Shown here one piece after another: positions 6,895-44,624 of a stretch of 64,000 bases of DNA (position 1 is the first letter of the stretch; the number at the start of each line of letters is the position of its first letter). The stretch comes from Gamsiella multidivaricata (taxonomy: Eukaryota > Mortierellomycota > Mortierellomycetes > Mortierellales > Mortierellaceae), in contig NW_026251719.1 in NCBI RefSeq assembly GCF_025024155.1, positions 516,666-580,665 on the forward strand, given 5' to 3'. A model generated the notes under the pieces. It was not told the origin of the DNA, did no database searches, and worked only from the letters and a program-made list of their open reading frames with translations. The position numbers were made by a program, and so were the translations under genes.

Positions 6895-9800
6895 TTAACG
6901 GAACCTGACCACGACATATGGCACTTCAACATCCTCGCCATCGCGGTCATAGCACACCACTTCGACCGTAAAGGCCTTGACGTGAGGAGGCGTACTCTTC
7001 CTCGAGACCGTCTCCACCAGCTTCGAGAACTTCATTGGCAAACGCTCCTTCTTCTTGTCCTTCTGCATGAATGAAGTGTACAACATGCTAACGCCCGCGG
7101 AAATCATCGCAATCTCGAGCTCGTGCTCGTTCTTGAAGTAGTCGATAAATTCCTGCAGTGTCACATCCTGATTGATCTCAAAGCGGTCCCACAGCGTGAA
7201 CTCCGTCTCGTGGTACTTGAACTTGGGTGCAGCAATTGGCTCAGAGAATCCAAAGAACGGCAGCGCCAAGTTCACGAATCCGTTCTTGTAGTCGTCAATC
7301 TTAGTGCGGTTATCGATGATCTTGTACAGCTCCAAGCAGACCAATCCAGTCACCATGGCTGTTGTTGTCGCAATGGCAGGAATGATACGACCTGCAATGA
7401 ACTTGGTACGATATTTGTCCGCAGGGTTGATGCCGTAGTTAGATGCACGCAAGTTTGATGTTGCCGTGATGAAATCGATGTGGAAGTTGGTGTCATCATC
7501 CTTCTCAAACTCGACAGGGTGGAGGCGGTACCCAGCAAGGGTCGAGGGCGCTGGGAGGGTATCGATCAACTTCTGCAACTCGGCTTGATCGCTATCTTCT
7601 GTGGGCAAGGTCTCGCTCTCGGTCACCTGGATCTTGACACCAGACTTGGGCTTGAACTCGGGAACGATGACGTTTGACAGCACCTGGCGGAAGATCTCTG
7701 GGTTTGTCTCTCCCTTCAATCCATAGTTGAACGCGTGGAGGTTGGCTGCCGCGATAATGAACTCCAGGTGGGCGGGGTCATCAACGTTAAACACGAGAGG
7801 GGTTGGGGGACGCTTGGGAGCACTCCAGAACAACGTTCCTGAGGAGGTGACAGAGTCCTTGGGGAAGTTGAACAAAAGCTGCTGGATGTTGTTGTTGAAC
7901 TGCTCCTCAAACTGAAGGCGGGCCCAGGTAATGCACTCCTCGAAGCTCAAGGGCTTGTTTGAAACCAGGTACTTCTCGATCGTCTTCAAGGTCTCAGTGC
8001 TGTTACCTCTGTCCTTCAAAAGACCCTCAATGTAATTGGGCTGGCTGAGATAAAGGTTGGCATTCTCGGCTGGCTGCTTGAAGAATCCCTCAAAGGCATC
8101 ACGGGCCCATTGGATCGTGTGCTCAATGGCGTTGGGGAAGTTCTTGAGGGTGCAGAGAGGAATAGATGTTTCTGGGGGATCCTGGGACGAGGAGTAGGAC
8201 TCTGTTACGAATGGAACAACGACCTGGACGTTACCCTTAGTACCGAGCGTTCCTGACTCCAGTAACGATTTGCGGAAGTAGACGCAGCGTCTATCCATGT
8301 ACTTGCGGGCATCGAGGTTGTCGAGTGCGTTGGTGACACCGTCCAGGTTGGCAAAGAAGTCGTCGTCGTAAACCTTCTCGCTTTCAACGCCAACACGCTC
8401 CTCGTATGCGACGACATGGCCGACCGTGGCAGGGTTCATCTTGGCGATCGCATCCGCAGCCGAACGCGACTTTAGCTTTCCAACGTCTGATGGACGGAAC
8501 AAGAACTGACGGTTCAAGTTACTCTTCTCAATCGTGTCCATATCCGTGATGTGGATCTTTCCCTTGGGTCCAGTTCCAAGACCCATCATCGCCCAGTTCT
8601 TAAGCATCTCGCATCCGATGGCTCCTGCACCGACAAGGAACTCTCTGAAGTTCTCAATCTTCTCCTGGAATTCTCTGCCAAAGACAGCGATCTGGTTGTC
8701 GTGGCGAGAGCCGATGGGCTGACATGCCTCCTCCGTCAAGTTGACTGTTGTAGGCAAAGATTCCAGGGAATCAAAGTACATCCACTGATGAATAGGACTG
8801 AACTTTCCTGTGCATGCCTTAAGAACTTCCTGAGCGACAGTGCCACCAATAACAGCGACCATGGGCGACAAATCTCCAATAGCCTGATAAGAGAGTTCAC
8901 GAATCAGCTTTTCATCCAACTCCGCCTAATAAATGCAAAGAATTATTAATGAAGGCCAATAAAAGTGGATTAGTAGCTGATATGAGTTGGATACTTCCTG
9001 AAAATTAAACAAGGGAGCAGATAGCCTTACCTTCTCGGTAGCCTTGTTGTTAATCTCGTTTGCAAGAGCGAGCACTTCTGTGGCATCCTCCTCATTTCTT
9101 GGGCGAGGTTGACGACCGTGCTTAGCAGCAAAAGCGTGCAAAGCTTGGAATCCAACATGGAGCTGGGCAGGGCGATCAAACTTGCCGAAATCTGTAATCA
9201 AGAACTCGGGCTTCTGAAGAGATTCCTTAAGGTTCAACTATAATGATGACCAGTAAGAAAGCATAAAAATGCAGTTGTTAATAAAGGGTTCAAGTATAGC
9301 TGCATAGCTTGAGTAATGAAACGGGCAATGTTTGATGAATAGCTTACAAAGTCCAGCTGCTTAGGCATCTTGACTTGCTGGAAAAGTCCCCCACGGATAT
9401 ATGTTCCCAACCCAGAGGTGTCTCCAATCGAGAAGGTGTAGGGTCCAAGCACCTTGACCTTTCTTGGTGTGCAACCGTTCAATGCCTCCATGCCGACGAC
9501 CTCCACAAAGGTGACATAGTCACCATCCTCTAGACCATGGCGAGTTTCGTCCAAGCAGGTAACAATGCCCTCATTGTCTGCTGAAACCTCAGCAACCATT
9601 CCGGAAAGTGCTTCCTCGCCAGTAACATCGACAATGTTGAACCCCTTGCCAAAGTCGTTGAAGGTCTGAGCAAAGAGGCCGTGGAGCTCGGCAGAAATAT
9701 AGTAGATTCCGTGGGCATGTGCATATTCGTTGAGCTCCAACTGCTTTTCTAGTGAGGTCTCGGTCACGACGATAACCTAAGGATGGGTGTGAAAGTAATA

Positions 9801-32403: not shown

Positions 32404-34119
32404 TTACAAAAAGTATTGGTTTCCGCCGGCGCCGGATGATGACTGGGTATGTTGAACTTCCACCGCTGAAAAAATCTTAAAGTTGGATTCATCCACGGTT
32501 GGGCCGTCTAGTTTGAGAATCGCTGCAACGTTGCCGCATCTGTAACAGTAATTTGGTGCCGACCAAACTAGCAACAACAAAATGGAAACCGATTCCAACG
32601 CCATGGTTAGTCTGTAATTCTTTTCTCTCCCCGATCCTCAGAAATATGCTATCAAGGGTTGATTATACATACCTGTAACAAGGTTATCATCCGGGAACAT
32701 GTATTTGAATCCCTCCTGAACAAGTTGATGAGCACGAGCGATGAGGTTGAGACCGTTGACATGATTGAATTCGCTCGTGACCTTGGCGCCAAAGAGCCAT
32801 CCTGCTCCTCTTGGACTCACTCCCCAGCCGTCAATATCATCTGGGTCTGACCACATCAAGTCTATATCGAAGATAAAAGATTGTTGGCACATCAATTAGG
32901 AATTCCTGTCCGTCGTGAACCGTAAAGGTGCTGGAAAAAGCATCGGATCCTTCATACCACAGAAGGCTCCTTCATGTGGGATTTCCTGGCATCTTTGAAT
33001 GGTACGAATCTGATCCAATGTCCTGACATCGGGTGAGAGACCTCCATGTACGCACAGCACACGGCCATCGACAATCTATCCAAAGAGGATAGGGCAATAC
33101 AGATTAGATGACATAGTTTTTCGTTCAAACGACGTAGATGAGGCATGCGAAATACCAAAGGTCTGTCTTAATATCGTTCCTGCTCATGTCCTCATGCAAC
33201 TTACAGCAGCCAGCGTTAAATAATCGAACACTTGGCAGCAGTACTTCCAGACGTTTGCGTTTCCGTACTTGGTCTGGCATTCGTCTAAGAAATAACATTA
33301 TACCGAGACGTCCATGTTAGTTACTAGAAGCGAACCATGGAAATTATAGCCAACAATGACCAGTTCAGAGAGATTCAGACGCACCATAGAAGCCATATAC
33401 TTGAGTGATCTGTCTACTCTCATGGTTTCCACGAAGAAGTGTAATCTTATCGGGCCATCTATCGATATTAACCAGAACAAAGAAAGATGACTTGGTTAGT
33501 ATCACTTTCGGCCGAGCACAACGAAATTACGCGAATCTATGTGAGATACACAGTTACTAGCATCAGCGCTAGTCCGTTGTCTATCTATACCTTGCTTTCA
33601 ACACCATTAACAATGTAAATGTTTCCAAGCTGTTAAATCCTCGGTCCACAAAGTCGCCCTACAACATCAGTAAGATAAAGGGCGTCCATTAACAACATGA
33701 AGTCCTAGCCCTTCCTGCTTGACAACTTGCAGAAAACCGTATATGTCTAAAGCACGCTTCCACTGCGCAATCCATGACCATGGCGATGGCCTGTATCCGT
33801 ACCATAAAGATATAATTCGTTTCTGGAATCTCTCCTCCGACCCTGAAAAGCTCCATCAGGTCAAAGAACTGTCCATGGATATCTCCGCAGACGGTGACAG
33901 GTGAGCGTACCGGCTGGATGTTGGATTCCTCCATCAAGAGCTCTTTAACCTAAACGCGGCAGAGAAAACATTTGATGAGCGAGTACGTTCGCCTCAATCA
34001 AAAGATGCAGGCCAATGTGTTATTTGTTACAGTACCATTTCGCACAGCTTCTTGATCTCGAGCTCTGGCAGGGGTTGACATTGTCGGACTGTCTCGAGCC
34101 ATTCGTCAGGTCCAGGCAT
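32404..34119 (-). CDS. PPP6C: PP6/Sit4-type serine/threonine phosphatase catalytic subunit
   Basis: A PP2A-like metal-dependent phosphatase; the family controls cell-cycle start, ER-Golgi traffic and TOR signalling. Eight exons, 34119-34036, 33949-33803, 33658-33591, 33458-33385, 33284-33205, 33075-32958, 32861-32673 and 32567-32404, join in frame to 307 residues, the family length. Metal and phosphate motifs are intact: GDIHGQ, GDFVDRG and [19 protein letters not shown]. Features that favour PP6 over PP4 are [26 protein letters not shown] and [15 protein letters not shown]. The C-terminus ends QYFL, the carboxymethylated tail of this group. Introns are short (67-145 bases). It is downstream of, and on the same strand as, the PIN-Fanzor relic, which is probably chance. 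Confidence 0.93.
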
Positions 34120-34483
34120 GGTTGAATACGTGCTTTTTTTTTAGTGGTTATTGCGTGGTGAATTGAGTTGGTATGAAGGGTATGTGCTGGTGCTGTGTGA
34201 AATCAGGATGAAATTGACAAAGGCAATAAGAAAGTGAGTTGCAGTGCCTCCTTCTTTGATGGGATAATGGGCAACAGGTGAAAAAGAGTTGAGGTCCAAC
34301 AAGCCTGGCTGATGCAGCAGAATGACGCCGAGGCCAATGAGGGAAGCGAGAGTCTCACTCGTACGAAATCCGCACATCTGCGCACCTATTACGTCACCGA
34401 AGTGGCTTCTAAGCGTCGCATACGACATGGGAAATCATCAGGGGGAGTGTGGGGGCGGCACACAAAAAAAACTAGTCTGACTA

Positions 34484-37400
34484 CTATTCCTCGCGGGGTC
34501 GGCGCGTCCTCTGGAGAATCGCCATGATCTGTTCCTCCTCCTCCGAAGCCTTTCTCTTGGATGCCTTTTGGGTGCTGTCTTGGACGCTATCGAGAGTGCA
34601 GTTGTCGATGCTGCTACTGCTACTGCTGGTTCCCTCAAAAGCTTGGTGGTCCTTTTCCTCAGCGCCCCCGGTGGTCTCCGTCTTCATCCACGGATAATTT
34701 CCCTCCTCGTCTACCGGCTGCAGGTACAAAGGCCGCTGTTGGTGGAGCAGATGTCCTTGGACGGCATTCACCATGCTGTGGGCCGCCATCTCATCCCTGT
34801 GGAATGGAGTTCCGCAGTCCTCGCAGAAGAGCCTTCGGATAGACACCTGGGAAACAAATGTGTGACAACGGAGGCATTTCTTGGAGCTGTAATATTCATT
34901 AACACCAAGAACGATGTAACTAAGCGACCTGGCCTAAAGAGCGATGGCGGTGAAATGTGTGAAAGTCAATAAATGGACTATCTGTCGTAGGGACAAGAAA
35001 TCGCCAGAGGAGTGAAACACTTACCAGGGGCACAAAGAATGCCAGAAAGGAGTCGTGGAGTGATGTGAGGCGCGAGCAACTGCTGAATTGACCAAGTCCA
35101 ATGCCAATCACCACCATGTTCTTTTCGTCTCTTTTGGCGCCTATCGATCCCCCCACCGACCTCAGCAAACTGTTTGCGATTACCAGGTACTCCTCCTCCC
35201 GTGCACGTTGGGCATCCCATTTGTGGCTCTGGTAAAGCCTGTTCGAGCCATTGTAAAAACTGCTCAAGCGCTGCTCGACCATCTCGAGCTGCTGAATGTA
35301 CTGCCCAACGCTTGCATCTGGCCCGCGGAGCGGTGGGAGGTCTGACTCAATCTCTTGGATCGATTGAGTTGCACCTTCCGGTACCACCCGTTTTTGCTCC
35401 TCTGTCCATCTTCGGAACTTGAATGTGGGTTGGTACACGGCCTTCTGGTTAACAGATATGTTGTAGTATGTCTCTGGATAGGGCGGATCAATCAAAGAGG
35501 CAGCAGAGTTCGTCCCAGAGGCGGCTGTGGAGATCAAAGAGGCAGGAGTGACCCTGTGGGTAGTAGCGGTTGGGAAAGCAGAGATCGTCACGACACGCCC
35601 CTTTCCTTTTTTGTCGTTGATCGGACGGTCTGTATCTGGTAGGAAGGCGCTTCCAGCTACAACATAGGCTTGACCAATATCCAGACACAAAATCTTGATC
35701 TTTTCTGGAGGGCAATGCGGCCAGAGTCGAGTGACATCGTCCTTGGTCTTTACGACATTCCGGATCTCCTGCAAGTAATAGTCGGTACCTCCAACCGTTG
35801 ACGTCAGGCGAGGGGGCAAAATGGCATCTGCCAGCCTCCGATATCGAACTGCTTGCAACTCCCTTAACTTGTAGGCAGACAGCTGAAGCCTGAAGCCATT
35901 GGTGCGGAAAGATCCTGTCAGAACATATCCCTTGAGGCTGTAATTTCGAGGGTCAAAGTTGGGATCACGGATGGCAGACAAATGGTTCCTCGCATCCAAA
36001 AGGGACATGTTGGTGATTGCGCCTCGGTATCCCAACTTCCCTCGTTGCCGAACAGTGAGACCAGTAGGAGCGACGTCTGCAATAAGGCTCTTGATTAGGA
36101 GCCCTGGCTCTTGATCTGGTAACCATATGGTTATCACGTCTTTCTCCGAGGAGCAGCTCGGAAATGTGACCCTTGCCAACTCCAGAATCCGAGTTTAGGA
36201 GCGGTCGTTTCCAGCATAAAGTGACGAGCTCTCGCTCCGAGAACGAGACAAAACCATCCTTTGCCGAAGATAGTGGGGCAATCTTCCGCCTGTTGCCGCT
36301 CATCATGTTGAATGTCAGAAAGTCCTCCACGGCTGTCAACTCGTTATGGATCTCCAAGTCGTATCCAACTACTTCCGGTCTGCCTTTTTTTTGCCAACCT
36401 TGAGCTATTGTTGATAAAGCGACCATCTTGTAGTAGAAAAATTCCTAATGTCATGCTACAGAATTCATTCAAGAAATACACTTGTTACCTGCTCTTGTAG
36501 TTCAATCGCTCCATTGCGATAAATACGTTTGAACTCAGCGCCCAGCTGAGTAGACACACTCCGTACTAGCTCCGAAGGTGAGAAAGGTGTGCTCTAGCGT
36601 ATAGCACTTGTTAGCCTTGGGGGAGTGTACAAGTTCAGCTCCTGTAATCGCCCAATGAAGCCAGTAACAAGTTTGCCAACGCCTCGATTCGTGGGAGGAT
36701 TGCCCGAATAAAGATGTCGTAGAAAGGCATAAAGGAACTGACTACTGGAACTGTCAGGTTCGCCATCGATGTCGTCGTCAGTGTGATTCTCACTACTGTC
36801 CTGGCCGCCATCTGCATCCTTGAGTTCTACCCTTGGGCATAATCCATCGAGATAGTCTCGGTCCTTTGGTTGCATATAACCAGCCGCCATGCTTTCCACG
36901 TACAGAGCAATGAGTCTCTGAGCACGTCGTTTGGTCCTGTTGGCCTCTCCAACGGCCTCCCGCAAGCAGTCAATCATTTCGTCAGCGACGTCCGCCCTGG
37001 TTTTCAATGCCGCCCTGATGTTTGCTTGTATAGTGCCGATACGAAGAGTCGCCTTTGGGTGCTCCCATTTCAGCCCATTCCAGAGCTGTCGCTTGTCCAT
37101 GGATTCAATAGGTGTTGGTGGCTTCGATGGCTTCTTGACTGGCTTCTTAGCTGGCTTCTTAGCTGGCTTCTTAGCTGGCTTCTTTGGGGTCAACTTGTTC
37201 TCAACTTTCTCCAAAGGACTCTCAGGCAGCTCGGTCCATGGCTTCCATTTGTAGCGCTTCATTGCCTGTGGAGGTTCGTGCGTTACTGTTTTCGTCCTGG
37301 TTTTAAAGGAGTAGCGAGGGCGAGGAGGAGGTGTGGTAGTCGAATCCTTGCTGTCCTTCGGAGGCGGGCGGTCGATGGTGCGGTACCTGTTGAACTTTTG

Positions 37401-38684
37401 AGAGGATCAATGTCGAGGTGGAGAACCGGGGGACAACGCACTACGTACAAAAATGGAGAAAGAAGAAAGGAATTAATAAAACACTGCAAATGCAATTGTC
37501 ATCACAGACAAACTGAAATGTATTGGTGAGGCATACCTCTTTGTTGCCTGTCTGGAAGCTAACTGCGCCTGTTTCCGCTCGGTAAACTTGCTGCGAGCAT
37601 ACTGGTACCTTTCCTTGATGCCCTCCAATCTCGCCTCAAGTGCGGTAGTATCTGGTTTGTCATGTTGGCCATGCGCGATCGGGGTTTGGTGAAGATGGAC
37701 GAAAACATTGATGCTCGTGTCGAAAGTAATGCCGCTTTTGTTCTTGATAACAACACGTTCATCAGCAAGGTATTCTTTCATTAGTGCCGGTACGTCTTTG
37801 GCTAAGAGATGAAAGATGAATGTATTAGAACAAGACATTTTTTCAATGTGAAAAAGCCAATGCATAGTACGCACCCTGATCGTCTGATCCTTTGGCTTTC
37901 ATATCCTTAACGATCTCATAGTTGGTCTCGCATCCCAAGACGTACAGACTGCGATTGTAATCATTGGTCGACACAACACCCAAGACCGTAAGCTGTTCTG
38001 CCGTCTCGAGTCCCAGCGCAGACAACATGTCTTTTTTCCGATACTCCAAGAAACCGCCACCACATACTGGTCGCCAAACAACAGGGATGCTGTGGTAAAT
38101 GAGAAGGTCCGAGTCCCCGCTGATGACAATGTCTCCTTCCATGGTATCTGTGGCGATTTTGACATCCGCCTCTGTATCACATTGCACGACCCTCCATCCG
38201 TGGTTCTCGAGAAAGCGGACAAGTCCGTTCCGAGCTTCCACATCCCAGCGAAAGGCGTTTGTGAGTTGCTTATCAACATTGGTAAAATGGCGCTTCCTGA
38301 TATGTGCGCCTTCGGATACACGATCCATGAAAGTCGTGACATGATCGTCGGCGGCGTTGATGGCCGTTTTTCGAGCATTCTGGCGCTTTTCATGGGTTGC
38401 AAGCTTTCCCTCGCATTGAGCGCCATCGAAGTATAGAATGACTGTCGTTGAATCCATGATGCGTTTTACGAGATTCTTCATGACCAGAGCATGGGCAGCC
38501 TCAAGGCCACTGCAATGAGTATAGGCGTATCGAATCGTACAATAAAAGCTTCCTTGCATGTCGACGCGGAATTTGTTGTGTGGTTCACCAAGAGCTTGGC
38601 GTTGATTTCGCGGTTTTCGTAAAGCTGGGTCGTATCGCTTTTTTTTTTCGCCGTCAGGAAGCGCCAAAAGGAAAGACACCCCAT
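34484..38684 (-). pseudogene. Fusion of a FEN1/XPG-like PIN nuclease with a Fanzor/TnpB-like RuvC nuclease (copy 1, nearly intact)
   Basis: Transcript order. PIN part (38684-37875): MGCLSFWRFL start, RVDMQGSFY (catalytic Asp), CDTEADVKIA, ISGDSDLLIY, and VVSTNDYNRSLYVLG like the FEN1 helix-2-turn-helix. GT-AG introns join it in frame to 37801-37537 and 37386 onward, with a KKPA repeat, WNGLKWEHPKATLRIG and a helical DCLREAVGEANRTKRRAQRL segment as in Fanzor. Then come VRYRRLADAILPPRLTSTVG, ILCLDIGQAYVVAGSA (RuvC-I), VVIGIGLGQF, VNEYYSSKKCLRC, LFCEDCG and HRDEMAAH (second zinc-ribbon pair plus RuvC-III Asp). The last intron, 35024-34934, is canonical. Lesions: a 10-A run at 38639-38648 that is one base short for the frame from the ATG, an in-frame TAG at 36594-36596, and a frame change near 36180-36230. 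Long stretches remain open. Confidence 0.7.
37128..37190 (-). repeat. In-frame 12-base (KKPA) tandem repeat in the PIN-Fanzor linker
   Basis: Five copies of a 12-base unit encode repeated KKPA/KKPV tetrapeptides. The array is strongly basic and lies between the PIN part and the helical part of the Fanzor-like part. It could serve as a nuclear localisation signal or nucleic-acid-binding linker (inference). Confidence 0.9.
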
Positions 38685-39399
38685 GACGCGGACTGGATAC
38701 CAATGGTGAAATGGAGAGTCGAGGCAACGTTGATTAGATATGAGATTTATACCAAACAAGGGCTGTACAAGGAAGGAGTGGAATGAGAAAAACGACAAGT
38801 GAAGAAATCCGATAGGTGGACTCGACCAATTGCAACCAAGGGTGATAAGTGGCAACGAAATGAGATGCAGAGGATGCGGAGCAATAAAAAAGAATATTTG
38901 TTCCAATAAGAATGGCACGTACCTGTGAAGGCAATGGTTCAAAGGACAAACAGCCAATATTGGTTATGGTAATGGGCAGAAGGAGCGGATAAGGGAAAGT
39001 GAGCGCGGAGGAGGAAACAAAAACGACACGCGTCCTTCTGGCTGGAGCGGGGTGAGAACTCAAAACGCAATTATGCAGCATTTGCGATTACAAGAAGGCA
39101 TACTTCCTCTAGCATCACCCTTCCCGATATGGTAATCCACTCCACTCGTACAGATGACGTTTCCGTACGGTTATGTATCCAGAGCAGCGATTGGCCGAGC
39201 ATTTGTTTGGAAATAACGAAGCGTATCTTAGTACGAGACTATTAGCGCTTACTACACTCTTCTTCCTTCTAACACAACTCTTCATAGATAGTTTTTTTTA
39301 TCTCACACTGTCCATGGTCAATCCCCTCTCGTACCCTTATTCTTCCTTCACTGTCATTCTTTGAAATAAAGTACCATATTTCTCGTCGTGTAGACTACT
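38685..39399. other. Divergent spacer between the two PIN-Fanzor copies
   Basis: A 715-base spacer between the two start codons, which point away from each other. AT-rich stretches near 39280-39300 and 39361-39375 are seen. No terminal inverted repeat is obvious by eye, and short frames show no motif. Confidence 0.5.
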
Positions 39400-42300
39400 A
39401 TGGGCATTGAAGGCCTGTGGCCCTATCTAAAAAAGAAAGAGTATGAACCCGTTCTTCGCTATCAGTCCTCCATTTATCCAACCTCCCTAGTTCCATTGAT
39501 CATAATTCCGCGATTTGAGTCGATATCCTTGGGTCTCTTTATGCCACCGTTCGCTACTCTTATTCCTCGCACCCTATGGACGATGCTCACCCCATTGTCG
39601 AGCGAGAAATACTGAAGCTTGGGACCCAGACGAACTTGGTTCTTTACCTGGAAGGCCTTCCTTTGAAAGAAAAAGAGCTCATTCAAGAGCATCGAGAGAG
39701 GCTTCGCAAGAAAGCTGTTGAACGCGCCCGACAAATGTCTGCGTGAGCTCGAGGTTCGCATGGATAAAACCTTCGCGTGCGGAAACACCAGTTCATTGAT
39801 ATCAGAAAACACTTGAGCTCGGCCTTCTATCAGTCCCTAGACGCTCGACGCGCTTTCGCCGTATATATGCGCAAGAAACTGTAGATAATCGTCGAGTGCT
39901 CGACCGAAATAGATCTCACGATGGGCCCTGAATGCAAGCCTGGCGACATCGTTGTATCAAGTGATAGCGACATGCTCATATACAAGAACGTCGAGACCAT
40001 TTGGCGACCCATCTCAAAAGGAAAATCTCTTTGTGTACGACGTTCCAAGCGCCTATGTGACTTTAGATCTCAGCTGGTCCAGTTTTTAGTGCTCAGAATA
40101 GCGTCTAAAAACAACTATAACCACAACATCCCCTCTCTCGGAAGTGCAACCAACTACAGAATCATCAAACTGGATGGAGAAGGAAAACGGATCAATCAGA
40201 TCATCGTGTATATCACTGATGCAGAAAACGTGCATTTTTTGGCTTGCAGACGTTGCGACGATGACGAAGCATTATTTGGCACACAATCAAGAATACTGCG
40301 CAGGAAACGTTTGTTATTTTGCAAAGGGTTTTTGTGAATCTTTTACAGACTCTTGTACAAATTAGCCCACTCCAGCTCAAGCTGCCATGACCTATGGCAG
40401 TCTTCGGAAGCAGTCCGATTGCCTTTCTCAGCGGCAATCCCAAATGCAGAAAAAGATGCGAGAGGCACGCGAGGCGGAGGAGGTATACAACGTCAAACAC
40501 TGCCTTGCTTTGTAAGAATCCTCACTTGCATGAAGGCGTGCATAAAATTAACTCTAAATTATGGTAATCGCTACCAACTTTGTTAACTTAATAGTGAGTC
40601 AACTGGTACTAAGACTCGGCGGCACAAATCTTCGCAGACCTTCGCGCGATCGATCACCCTGCTCCACATCAGGCAGAGGCTGCAAGTGAGGTGAACCCTG
40701 CCCAGTCTTGTACCAACCCCCCACAATACCGACCGCAATATCTGTCAAATAGCGCATTCGACTTAAGGAACATGAGCCGCCTGAAACAATGAAGCAGTAC
40801 ACATGGAAGGCATGGAAGAAAACACCCGAGAATCCCTTGGATCCCGACGCTGGATCTTTCAAGAAGAAGAAGGACGTGAAGGAGAAAAGAGCGAAGAATA
40901 AAAAAAGAAGAAAAAGTAGACTACGCCAAAGCCAATAAGTGCCCCGACAGGAAAGGCTGCCTTGGTTCGAGCTATGAATTGGGAACATCCGCAATCTGAA
41001 GCGAACTTTGGGAGAGTCGGAATTGGTATCCGAAATCGAAAGGTGTCTTCGGGATGCTGTTCGGGTTGTGTCTGATACTAAGCGACAGGGGCAGCGACTC
41101 GTCAGGCAGTTCATTGAGAGTCTCTTTGTTTCACGCAACGGACAGAGATATATTGTGCAACGTTTGTCCATGTGTCTCGTCCAAGATCAAAGTTGAGGAA
41201 GAGGAGGAGGGAGAAGAATAGGGGGAGGGAGATAAGGATGATGATGATCCAGGGCGCAAGGACTCAGACCACCTACGCTTCCATACTGTGCTGTCCCAGC
41301 ACCTCTACACAGGCGACCCCATCATCGCGCCAAATGTAGTTGTTAAGCGCATCCAACAGTTTGTCGATCGAGCAGCGAGTCTTGGGCTGCTGCAGAGAAG
41401 GAACAATAGAACTGCAATTTTGGTCAGGAAGCCATATCCTGCTGCGGTTTTACTCCGCTCTGTTGCCTCGCAGCTGTCCAGTGAAATAAAAAAAAAAATA
41501 CAGAAACGACAGCATTGAGCTCGAGAAAAAGGTAGAGAACAAAATCCGTGTTCTATCGCTACATGCATGCCAGTAGCGGTCAGCTGTAAGAACGACAGCA
41601 CTAGCATTGACGATCTGTTGAAGACGAAGGGTCTCATATCTGATGGGTCACGTATAGAGATCGACCAAGGCATCTCAGCCATCGAGAACTTCGTGCTTTT
41701 GAACCAGTCCAGCAGGAGTTACCGCCAGACGGCTCCACTAACAGGCACGGAGCAGCCTTTCATGTTATTCTCTGAGCGTGAGCTCGGTATCTTGCTTTTG
41801 GAAAATGCTGCGCTGAAAAAAAAGCTCCAGGAGCTAGTACTGGTGGACTATGGGAACAGGGACATCATTCCTTCTCAGCAGAACTTGATCGATTGGCTTG
41901 GGCAGAAGGCTTCTGGGTTCCTTATCACAGAGATGCTTTTGAACGTCGGCAGGCGTGAGCCACGCGAAGGGCCGAGAGATTACAAGGATTCGACGTCCGT
42001 GATGGGGTTGAGCATGATGAAAGAACACGTTCAATCCATTCGGCTGACCAACTTCGACCTTATGACTTACGAGGGACGCCGCTATGTTCACTGAGGCTCC
42101 ATTTGGACAGATGGTTTCCGCCTTCATCTGTCGGCTCTCAAGTTAAAAAGCTGCAATCAGTCAGATACAGGCGACTACTGCAGGATGTCTTGCCCCTTCG
42201 AATCACATCCACAGTTGGGGAAGTGGATTATTACTTGACGGAATTTATAAGCATTGCGAAGCCCCAGCAGGATGTCACCGACCTTTAGGGATATGCGCCG

Positions 42301-43211
42301 GATCAAATCAGGGCCCTAGGTCTCGACCTCGGCCAAGCCTGTGTACCTGTTTACTCGGAGCAAATGCGTTGCTACCAAAGAGCGATGATTCCGGCAGTAC
42401 GACAACGGGTCCTGGAAGAATGGGAGATAATGTCGACATGTGCAGCTCTTCCGAGATTACAACCCCTACTCCCGGTCCTCTCACTAATTACAATCTCGCA
42501 GTGAAGCAAAAGGCTGTGTACCAGCCCACGTTCAAGCACAGAAGATGGATGGAAGAGCAAAAAGAATCGTCCCAGGTAACGGAATGGAGTCCATTGGCAA
42601 CATTGAGACTAAGTTGCCGTCGCTGCGTGGCAAGGGAGCTAGTTTTGCGAGCTATGTTACGGAGCTGGAGAGAGTAGAGGCACAACTGAATGAGTTTTAC
42701 AACGGCAGCAATCGGTTCAAGAGGCATAAGTGGGACGCGAGAAGGGCCAAGGATGCGGAGTACAGACTCATAACGGATCGCCTACTTAAGTTGGTCGAAG
42801 GACAGATCGGCAGAAAGAGAGAGGAAACCAACAAGGTTGTGATTGGGGTTGGTCTGGGCAAGCCTTCAACCAAGACGAGAATCTCCTCTTTGCACGAGTC
42901 CTTTCAGTCGTACTTTGTTCAGAAGGTAGGAGCACTATCGCCTGAGAACCGATGTTATGTAAAATCGTTTTATGTTTTTATTGACTTTGTCTTGATGCCC
43001 TTTAGGCCAGATCTCTGGGCTACATCGTAGTTGGAGTGAATGAGTACGACAGGTCGGAATCCACAGGCTATACTGCTCAACCTGCGACACTTTCATACAC
43101 CGCGATATCATGGTAGGGCACAACATTTGCAACGTAGCTCGCAGCCGTTTACTCCATCAACAGCGACCGCTCTTTCTTCAGGCAGTAGATAAGGACGGGC
43201 ACTACCCTTGA
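39400..43211 (+). pseudogene. PIN-Fanzor fusion, copy 2 (heavily decayed)
   Basis: The same domain order as copy 1, on the opposite strand and in many broken frames. It starts MGIEGLWPYLKKKEYEPVL, closer to the XPG/FEN1 N-terminus than copy 1. It continues with DILGSFYATVRYSYSS in another frame, an in-frame stop after ARQMSA, VVSSDSDMLIYKNVETIWRP, a FEN1-like SKNNYNHNIPSLGSATNYRI, WKAWKKTPENPLDP, CLRDAVRVVSDTKRQGQRLV, LFSERELGILLLENAALKKK, VRYRRLLQDVLPLRITSTVG, IRALGLDLGQACVPVYS, VVIGVGLGKP, LGYIVVGVNEYDRS and CSTCDTFIHRDIMVGHN. The zinc ribbon keeps only one CxxC pair; about 15 residues between NEY and the last CxxC are missing. Divergence from copy 1 is large, so the duplication is old. Confidence 0.75.
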
Positions 43212-44624
43212 ATGCAAGATACAAGGCTGCACACAGAAGTCGGGGCCAGCAGCAGCACCAGCAGTAGCGCAGTAGAGCAAGGGCAAGGGCAAGGACGGGC
43301 TGGAGGACGCAAGCGAGCAGCCTGATCCTTGGAAGGGATAGAAGCTCCTGACGCCAAGCGACTATAGACTATGTAGATAGTATGTGAGTCAGCAAACACA
43401 CTCTAAGTTCAGATGCAGTACTTTCTGAAATCTACTCTACGGTTATATTAGTTCGATTCCAGTACATGCAGCAATAGCAGGCAAGCATCTCAATTGACCC
43501 AAGCACGCCTTGCGCAGGTGCTCGGGCACTTTGGGGAGTATATCTAACAAACAGAGCCATCGTTGGATAAAGTCAAGCAATACACGCTTATTATACACAT
43601 GCTAAAAAGTAATCACATTTTTTCATATCGTTACAAGATTAAGAATGGAAACGGCATAGAGGAAATATATGATGAAAAGGTTCGACAACACCAAAGACGA
43701 CGACAAGGACACATTGAGCGAACTTTCTAAAGGTACGTTCACATGTGGTCGAAGTTATATCATTGAAAGACGTTATCGCGATTCATGACAACAAAGAGGC
43801 AGGACCTATTGTCACTGTCCGGCTCAGACTTCACTCTAGGAAAGATGTAGTTCTCCTAGTCTTTCTAGCTATGCCCTTGAATTCACTAGTGGTAGACTGT
43901 ATTGCGGCATCAAGCTATCCTGTTGCTAACGCAGCTTCAGCGACTGCGATACGAGCTCAAATATATTACGATTCCGAATAACGGCATCGAAAATGATGAT
44001 TAGGTGTGCGGACGAATTTGAAGAGCGTCTAGATACTGTTGTACGAAACATAGTCGCGAGAACATCGGTTCGAATACGCTTACTGTTTCCTCAGTGCCAT
44101 TCAAAAATCCGTAAAAGCATGCGATGAACATTCATTTAATTCATGCGATATCGCAGTTAATATACAACGGCGTATCAACCATATCAATCTACAGTAGCCG
44201 CTCAACATCCTGCGTTTTACTTGTAGGCGGCCTTTTCGCTGTTGCTCCATACCTGCTGACTTGCCTTCGAACATTTGCTCGCCTCGGTATGGTTCATTCT
44301 CTCCACCATATTTAACAGCGTCGTTTGAAACGTAGAGGGAACGCGGCCCCCAGGGCTGATCGGCCAGATATTGCTGTCGAAGTGTTATGCTAGGAGGTGC
44401 TATAGAAGAAGCTATGGATCCATTTCAGGACAATAGCACCAGAAAAAACAAATGAAACCTACAGTGTCCCACGAAGTTTGATATCATTATCGTAGACAAG
44501 GAGAGTACTCTTGCTTCAATACTCCAAGTTAATATAGATATTACATGTAGAAACTCCTTCGAACCTTTATTGCGATGCCATATTACCAGGTGTATTATCG
44601 TAAAATTGAATAAAGCGTGAATAA
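43212..44624. other. Intergenic region after the decayed copy; no gene seen
   Basis: A 78-residue frame at 43745-43981 has no recognisable feature. A GTTCGATTCC string near 43450 resembles a tRNA B box but no cloverleaf pairs around it. The rest is unremarkable. Confidence 0.5.

Follow-up and report, generated by a model that had tools for sequence, protein, structure and literature searches.

The stretch of DNA analysed here, hereafter the window, comprises 64,000 nucleotides of Gamsiella multidivaricata (Mortierellaceae; RefSeq assembly GCF_025024155.1, contig NW_026251719.1, positions 516,666 to 580,665 of the forward strand) and carries on its minus strand a series of exons that runs from an XPG-type PIN nuclease into a RuvC nuclease of the Fanzor type (Table 1). 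The locus is read, with a probability of roughly 0.9, as a decayed fusion gene of an XPG/FEN1-type PIN half and a Fanzor1-like half (PIN-Fanzor) within a Mortierellaceae MULE-type DNA transposon, other copies of which keep a divergent MULE-type transposase.

The XPG-type motifs are located in exon 1 and the PIN domain ends in exon 2; the helical Fanzor part of exon 3 is called REC-like as a label by analogy. A preliminary description, made from the letters alone, had proposed the exon series, and this is present with its GT-AG junctions 37875/37801 and 37537/37386, as are VDMQGSFY, ISGDSDLLIY, CLDIGQAYVV, the C-x2-C...C-x2-C ribbon and HRDEMAAH at the positions claimed for them, but it does not form one intact reading frame. 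In particular, the ATG at 38684 (MGCLSFWRFL) and VDMQGSFY, taken there as one XPG-type N-terminus, both exist but belong to different frames, the switch occurring at the A10 run 38639-38648; exon 3 is interrupted by the in-frame TAG at 36594-36596, and the open frame of exon 4 changes between about 36150 and 36194, a region where the copies L002 and L003 (95-96% identical to the window) have an open frame of 522 amino acids. The window copy is thus decayed, given the split start, the stop codon in exon 3 and the frame change in exon 4.

Table 1. Features of the PIN-Fanzor element in the window
Feature	Positions	Strand	Remarks
MULE-type transposon copy with PIN-Fanzor gene	34365..39142	-	boundaries common with L009/L010/L011; flanking direct repeat
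Exon 1, XPG/FEN1-type PIN nuclease	37875..38684	-	frame broken at A10 run 38639-38648
Exon 2, PIN domain end and linker start	37537..37801	-	phase-1 intron precedes exon
Exon 3, basic linker and N-terminal helical Fanzor part	36489..37386	-	in-frame TAG 36594-36596; conserved linker columns
Exon 4, Fanzor middle and RuvC-I (Asp codon 35679-35681)	35025..about 36426	-	exact acceptor uncertain
Exon 5, alternative RuvC-II Glu (NEYYSSKKC), C4 zinc ribbon, RuvC-III Asp (HRD), tail	34484..34933	-	
3' untranslated stretch and element right end	34365..34483	-	right end common to 6 places, window included
Target site duplication CACTCGTAC, right copy	34356..34364	.	flanking repeat
Target site duplication CACTCGTAC, left copy	39143..39151	.	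flanking repeat

The N-terminal half is assigned by profiles and by predicted structure. The N-terminal part of a family profile built from 13 sequences matches Rad2 (5.9e-11), XPG, FEN1 and EXO1, as does a profile of 30 sequences, and the archaeal FEN1 model of NCBIfam is matched in six of seven proteins (best 3.6e-7, under its cut-off). P0006, from Benniella sp., passes the Pfam cut-offs of XPG_I (1.1e-5), XPG_I_2 (1.7e-6) and TNB (8.3e-12) in one protein; among the other six proteins scanned beside it the XPG cut-off is passed by one (P0021) and the TNB cut-off by five, and P0006 and P0021 are the two of 11 relatives above the cut-off of either XPG model. The N-terminal part is predicted to adopt a FEN1/EXO1 fold, with DNA flap/5' nucleases as the best-ranked fold matches; when the full-length model (predicted TM score, pTM, 0.42) is aligned, FEN1-type chains are among the matches listed, the best 50, which one domain fills. 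In an alignment of 30 rows, counting rows with letters, the XPG metal-binding positions are occupied by Asp (13/14), Asp (21/21), Glu (23/23), Asp (20/24), Asp (24/24) and Asp (25/25).

The C-terminal half is recognised by the zinc ribbon and by the spacing of the catalytic residues. Exon 5 matches PF07282 (Cas12f1-like TNB) with 6.5e-9 and 36.3 bits, above the gathering score of 26.3, and the long Fanzor/TnpB motif, D-X(125,275)-[TS]-[TS]-X-X-[C4]-X(5,50)-RD (PMC3627910), is present in the joined exons 4 and 5 with a spacing of 233; it occurs in 16 of 38 database proteins, 21 of the 38 being devoid of the C4-RD tail. In the same 30-row alignment the RuvC-I Asp (28/28) and the RuvC-III Asp (20/20) are invariant and the canonical RuvC-II position has no conserved Glu. 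In Fanzors an alternative RuvC-II Glu is described that precedes the zinc ribbon by six residues (PMC10711439); it is found in the window and in 14 of the 17 proteins with a C4-RD tail, the aligned column holding Glu in 16 of 20 rows, Lys in 3 and Gly in 1. A RuvC-only profile of five sequences matches the TnpB-like protein L79 (1.3e-4), TranC, Cas-phi and IS605 OrfB proteins, the C-terminal part of the 13-sequence family profile matches TranC (0.0016), and the guided_TnpB model of NCBIfam (NF040570) is matched, under its cut-off, by all seven proteins searched (9.6e-11 to 5.8e-8). The designation Fanzor1-like is derived from carriage by a MULE-type transposon and from size.

Evidence that the two halves belong to one protein comes mainly from relatives. 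The joined window reading, with 7999 candidates scored, matched 31 proteins, many of them single proteins of more than 1,000 amino acids and all named in the source as Dissophora, Mortierella, Linnemannia, Benniella, Haplosporangium or Entomortierella; two further searches yielded 6 and 2 proteins, all named as genera of the Mortierella group, Gamsiella among them, and with 7997-7999 candidates scored per search these results do not bear on an absence of the fusion from other lineages. More than 150 aligned PIN columns accompany the complete motif in 14 of 16 proteins, the remaining two (P0005 and P0013) being records marked partial. Pairwise distances of the PIN and RuvC halves correlate (r 0.78, 298 pairs, none of 2000 permutations as high) among 25 proteins, 5 of the 30 having been dropped as lacking one half. 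It is very improbable that gene predictors have merged two adjacent genes of the transposon, as a variable linker between PIN core and RuvC and P0032, a PIN-containing model of 494 amino acids devoid of the RuvC part, might suggest: one-protein models occur in several genera and the PIN half accompanies 14 of the 16 motif-complete proteins, conservation extends to columns of the linker but not to a Met that could serve as an internal start (best Met column 16/25), and in 9 of 14 genomic copies, window included, a pattern search locates a phase-1 GT-AG intron in the same position, at the PIN end. The case for PIN and RuvC as one protein is thus made by gene models, by the conservation of the linker and by splice phase, as read from sequence. 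A chance juxtaposition of two unrelated pseudogenes, conceivable for a copy as broken as that of the window, has a practically negligible probability and is refuted by the 46 of 89 genomic RuvC clusters that are preceded on their own strand by a PIN half and by full-length relatives elsewhere. The identities given to both halves in the preliminary description, XPG/FEN1 by fold and profile matches and Fanzor/TnpB by PF07282 and the long motif, have therefore held, and so has their fusion, full-length gene models with both halves in single predicted proteins being found in several genera of related fungi; a C-terminal half devoid of Fanzor/TnpB matches and halves always kept as separate genes are both contradicted by the PF07282 match and the one-protein models.

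The fusion gene is repeated within the genome. The RuvC exon was located at at least 126 places of the 37.5-Mb assembly (106 of 215 candidates scored) and the PIN exon at 123; these matches form 89 RuvC and 98 PIN clusters, among which 46 pairs run in one direction with PIN leading and lie no more than 6 kb apart. The ratio of nonsynonymous to synonymous substitution (dN/dS) was computed on codons placed by tblastn to P0004, stops excluded, and pairs were printed when the synonymous difference was below 0.68 in at least one half. Between deep subfamilies of the genome it is 0.15-0.21 for the RuvC half and, where computable, 0.09-0.11 for the PIN half (dS at least 2.5, near saturation, and otherwise infinite); at the codon level these deep comparisons show both halves to be under purifying selection. 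A single PIN comparison over 77 codons, of the window with L021, gives 0.58. Recent copies have values of 0.24-0.97 and once 1.33, which would be expected of copies that decay once inserted. A young subfamily, L014-L020 (97-99% identical to L014), runs into contig ends, so that the copy numbers are probably underestimates. Seven stretches (L015-L020 and L023) end at contig ends, L017 within the PIN part; TTAGGG/CCCTAA, the only telomere repeat tested, occurs 0-2 times per stretch and forms no array at the tails, so that a telomeric location was discarded and the stops are read as assembly breaks at repeats. The window holds a second PIN-Fanzor copy at 39394-43273 on the plus strand, in head-to-head orientation to the first, diverged and more decayed; identity is 32% in its PIN part (39519-40169) and 53% in its zinc ribbon (43044-43217), and a search for its target duplication gave none that was clear. 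On viral contigs there were 27 pattern matches, none of them confirmed.

Four PIN places devoid of the usual partner were read. In L033 and L034 another Fanzor-like RuvC-I, of the DPG type, follows downstream, and a separate family of unpaired PIN genes was rejected on this basis; the stretch of L035 ends too early to judge and L036 is interrupted. When read, the proteins P0033, P0036 and P0037 likewise combine PIN motifs with a RuvC-I of the DPG type in a single chain; in Pfam they give at most a weak XPG_I match (0.0035, under the cut-off) and no TNB match. Because these two loci and three proteins pair PIN with DPG-type RuvC-I, the fusion probably comprises at least two deeply split groups. 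Some members of the second group (L034, reverse complement 780-1955, L035, P0033 and P0036) have CPFQAD, CAGQFD or CPYQAD in place of the TEAD found elsewhere, which suggests altered or lost PIN activity in some of its PIN halves.

The transposon is delimited in the window by a target duplication of 9 bp; L009 has one of 9 bp and L011 one of 10 bp, the expectation for MULEs being about 9-11 bp, and an automatic search of 16 copies gave no convincing duplication in the others. No transposase was found in the window element, where the MULE queries had no match. The copy L009 is larger, with GCTCAGCTT at both ends and GAGTGGCGCGAATCTGAGCACCTATTACC as its left end, and contains between them a putative transposase that runs in divergent orientation to the Fanzor part, the PIN half being deleted; its SWIM finger is above the cut-off (1.5e-4) and its MULE match below (0.012), as in L014 (SWIM 9.5e-6, MULE 6.8e-4), and the SWIM match of L026 (0.017) is below. 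The left end of L009, its 9-bp duplication and its transposase ruled out retroposition, considered for the sharp 3' end and variable 5' end of the copies. Six query pieces from L009 were compared with 26 distinct loci (L009-L028 and L033-L038), and MULE/SWIM pieces were recovered in 12 (L009, L010, L013, L014, L021, L022, L023, L025, L026, L027, L028 and L038), in all of them upstream of the fusion gene and divergent by coordinates; L013, L022, L025 and L027 match with the SWIM piece only, L038 with the first piece only, and L021 has one extra SWIM match next to a second partial copy. The pieces were not matched in the other 14, namely L011, L012 and L024 (long flanks), L015-L020 (contig ends) and L033-L037. 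The ends of L009 are imperfectly similar, the search giving 17 bp at 94% and visual inspection about 38 bp; the mapped ends of 22 segments showed no strong repeat, those of L021 and L025 lying elsewhere, and L027 and L036 also contain strong repeats. The divergent transposase pieces of these 12 loci, together with a FEN1-type fold and active site suited to 5' flaps, would agree with a PIN half that serves the MULE transposase by trimming 5' flaps or gaps after excision and strand transfer, the Fanzor half acting alone; this is rather unlikely, since it leaves unexplained both the correlation of the two halves and the fusion of PIN to Fanzor rather than to the transposase.

The right end is sharply common to the copies, and the fusion gene stops about 120 bases before it; by analogy, this right-end stretch (34365..34483) would be the expected position of a guide RNA. 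A TGACGTA-like motif is common to the diverged right ends of the L012, L014, L024 and window families, at a distance of about 32-38 bases from the terminus; it may serve the transposase as a site or belong to a guide RNA. About 240 bases beyond the element, counted from its right end to their likely ATG, open reading frames at 33689-34119 (minus strand) contain GDIHGQF and presumably encode the beginning of a Ser/Thr protein phosphatase. PIN-fold enzymes include RNases, and the closeness of the gene end to the expected guide place would fit a PIN half that processes the 3' end of its own transcript into guide RNA, or whose substrate is RNA in the R-loop; no structured RNA was detected in the right-end stretch, the best-ranked folds are those of DNA flap/5' nucleases and the metal-binding acids are largely kept, which makes such a ribonuclease distinctly unlikely.

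A guided enzyme with two nucleases is the tentative mechanism proposed for PIN-Fanzor, with a likelihood short of even. The Fanzor half would bind RNA from the element right end and open an R-loop at a matching site, probably the site left empty by cut-and-paste excision or the allelic site; RuvC would cleave there, the tethered flap/bubble nuclease would cut the R-loop where its single strand meets the duplex or trim 5' ends, and repair would be biased so that the transposon is restored with the sister or homologue as template. XPG reportedly cuts one flank of an R-loop (PMC7286691), so that a Fanzor R-loop would be a plausible PIN substrate. What the analysis shows is how the domains are arranged, that the active sites are conserved, that both halves are under purifying selection in deep comparisons and diverge in a correlated way, and that a transposon carries the gene; RNA guidance and a joint action of the two halves are inferred. 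Identity and mechanism taken together, the explanation as a whole is considered quite probable.

Several observations weigh against this interpretation. In the PIN half, the window exon reaches only E 0.052 with XPG_I_2 of Pfam, under the cut-off, the XPG models stay under theirs in nine of the 11 relatives, and the position of the second FEN1 Glu (E160) is Asp in 23/23. In the RuvC half, the alternative Glu position is Lys in 3 of the 17 proteins with a C4-RD tail. In all seven proteins guided_TnpB is matched over its C-terminal part only, with 32-42 bits against a cut-off of 100, and for this reason the half is not classed as TnpB proper. The mutual placing of the two halves is not fixed by the predicted full-length model at its pTM of 0.42, the pattern search gave no phase-1 intron for 5 of 14 genomic copies, and 43 of the 89 RuvC and 52 of the 98 PIN clusters are partnerless. 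Finally, the MULE domain stays under the Pfam cut-off, its exons having been searched apart, and the predicted fold of the 120-nt right-end stretch is no better than those of its shuffled versions (z -0.88).

In comparison with Fanzor1 proteins such as SpuFz1, the PIN-Fanzor family shares the long D...[TS][TS]..C4..RD motif, the alternative RuvC-II Glu, PF07282 and carriage in eukaryotic transposons; it differs in an added N-terminal XPG/FEN1-type nuclease and linker, in a length of about 1,100-1,300 amino acids and in the RuvC-I of its main group, mostly DLG, DAG or DGG (DIG in the window), DPG having been described for related TnpBs. Fanzor1 is also found in the fungal MuDr-type elements ROr-4, PBl-3 and MCi-4 from Rhizopus, Phycomyces and Mucor, which according to the passages of PMC3627910 on them have 9-bp target duplications, as here, and encode no MuDR transposase, whereas the larger copies described here carry a putative MULE-type transposase and the Fanzor is fused to PIN, a domain unmentioned in those passages. 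Unlike XPG/Rad2, FEN1 and EXO1, the PIN half is fused to a RuvC nuclease, has one Glu replaced by Asp and is transposon-borne. The preliminary description knew of no described PIN-Fanzor fusion, and the open literature searched, supplements excluded, contains no paper on a Fanzor with an XPG or PIN domain: word searches in the available text of PMC3627910, PMC10711439, PMC10432273 and PMC11423790 found no such fusion, the accessible literature on TnpB with XPG or flap endonuclease gave no description of it (the XPG match being a Cas12a paper), and the MULE survey PMC6446971 mentions neither Mortierella nor TnpB, Fanzor, XPG or FEN1. Judged against this open literature, the conserved, transposon-borne PIN-Fanzor fusion is a new Fanzor variant.

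Fanzors are the eukaryotic guided nucleases. The fusion of a Fanzor to a flap/bubble nuclease and its linkage to a transposase make the role of Fanzors in transposition testable, since the PIN half can be removed or mutated separately. A possible outcome, though one for which the odds are less than even, is that a MULE lineage of Mortierellaceae has kept a two-nuclease guided enzyme whose XPG-type part cuts the R-loop junction or resects the break, so that excision would be turned into copying; if true, this would be a natural example of a guided nuclease joined to an end-processing enzyme, relevant to genome editing.
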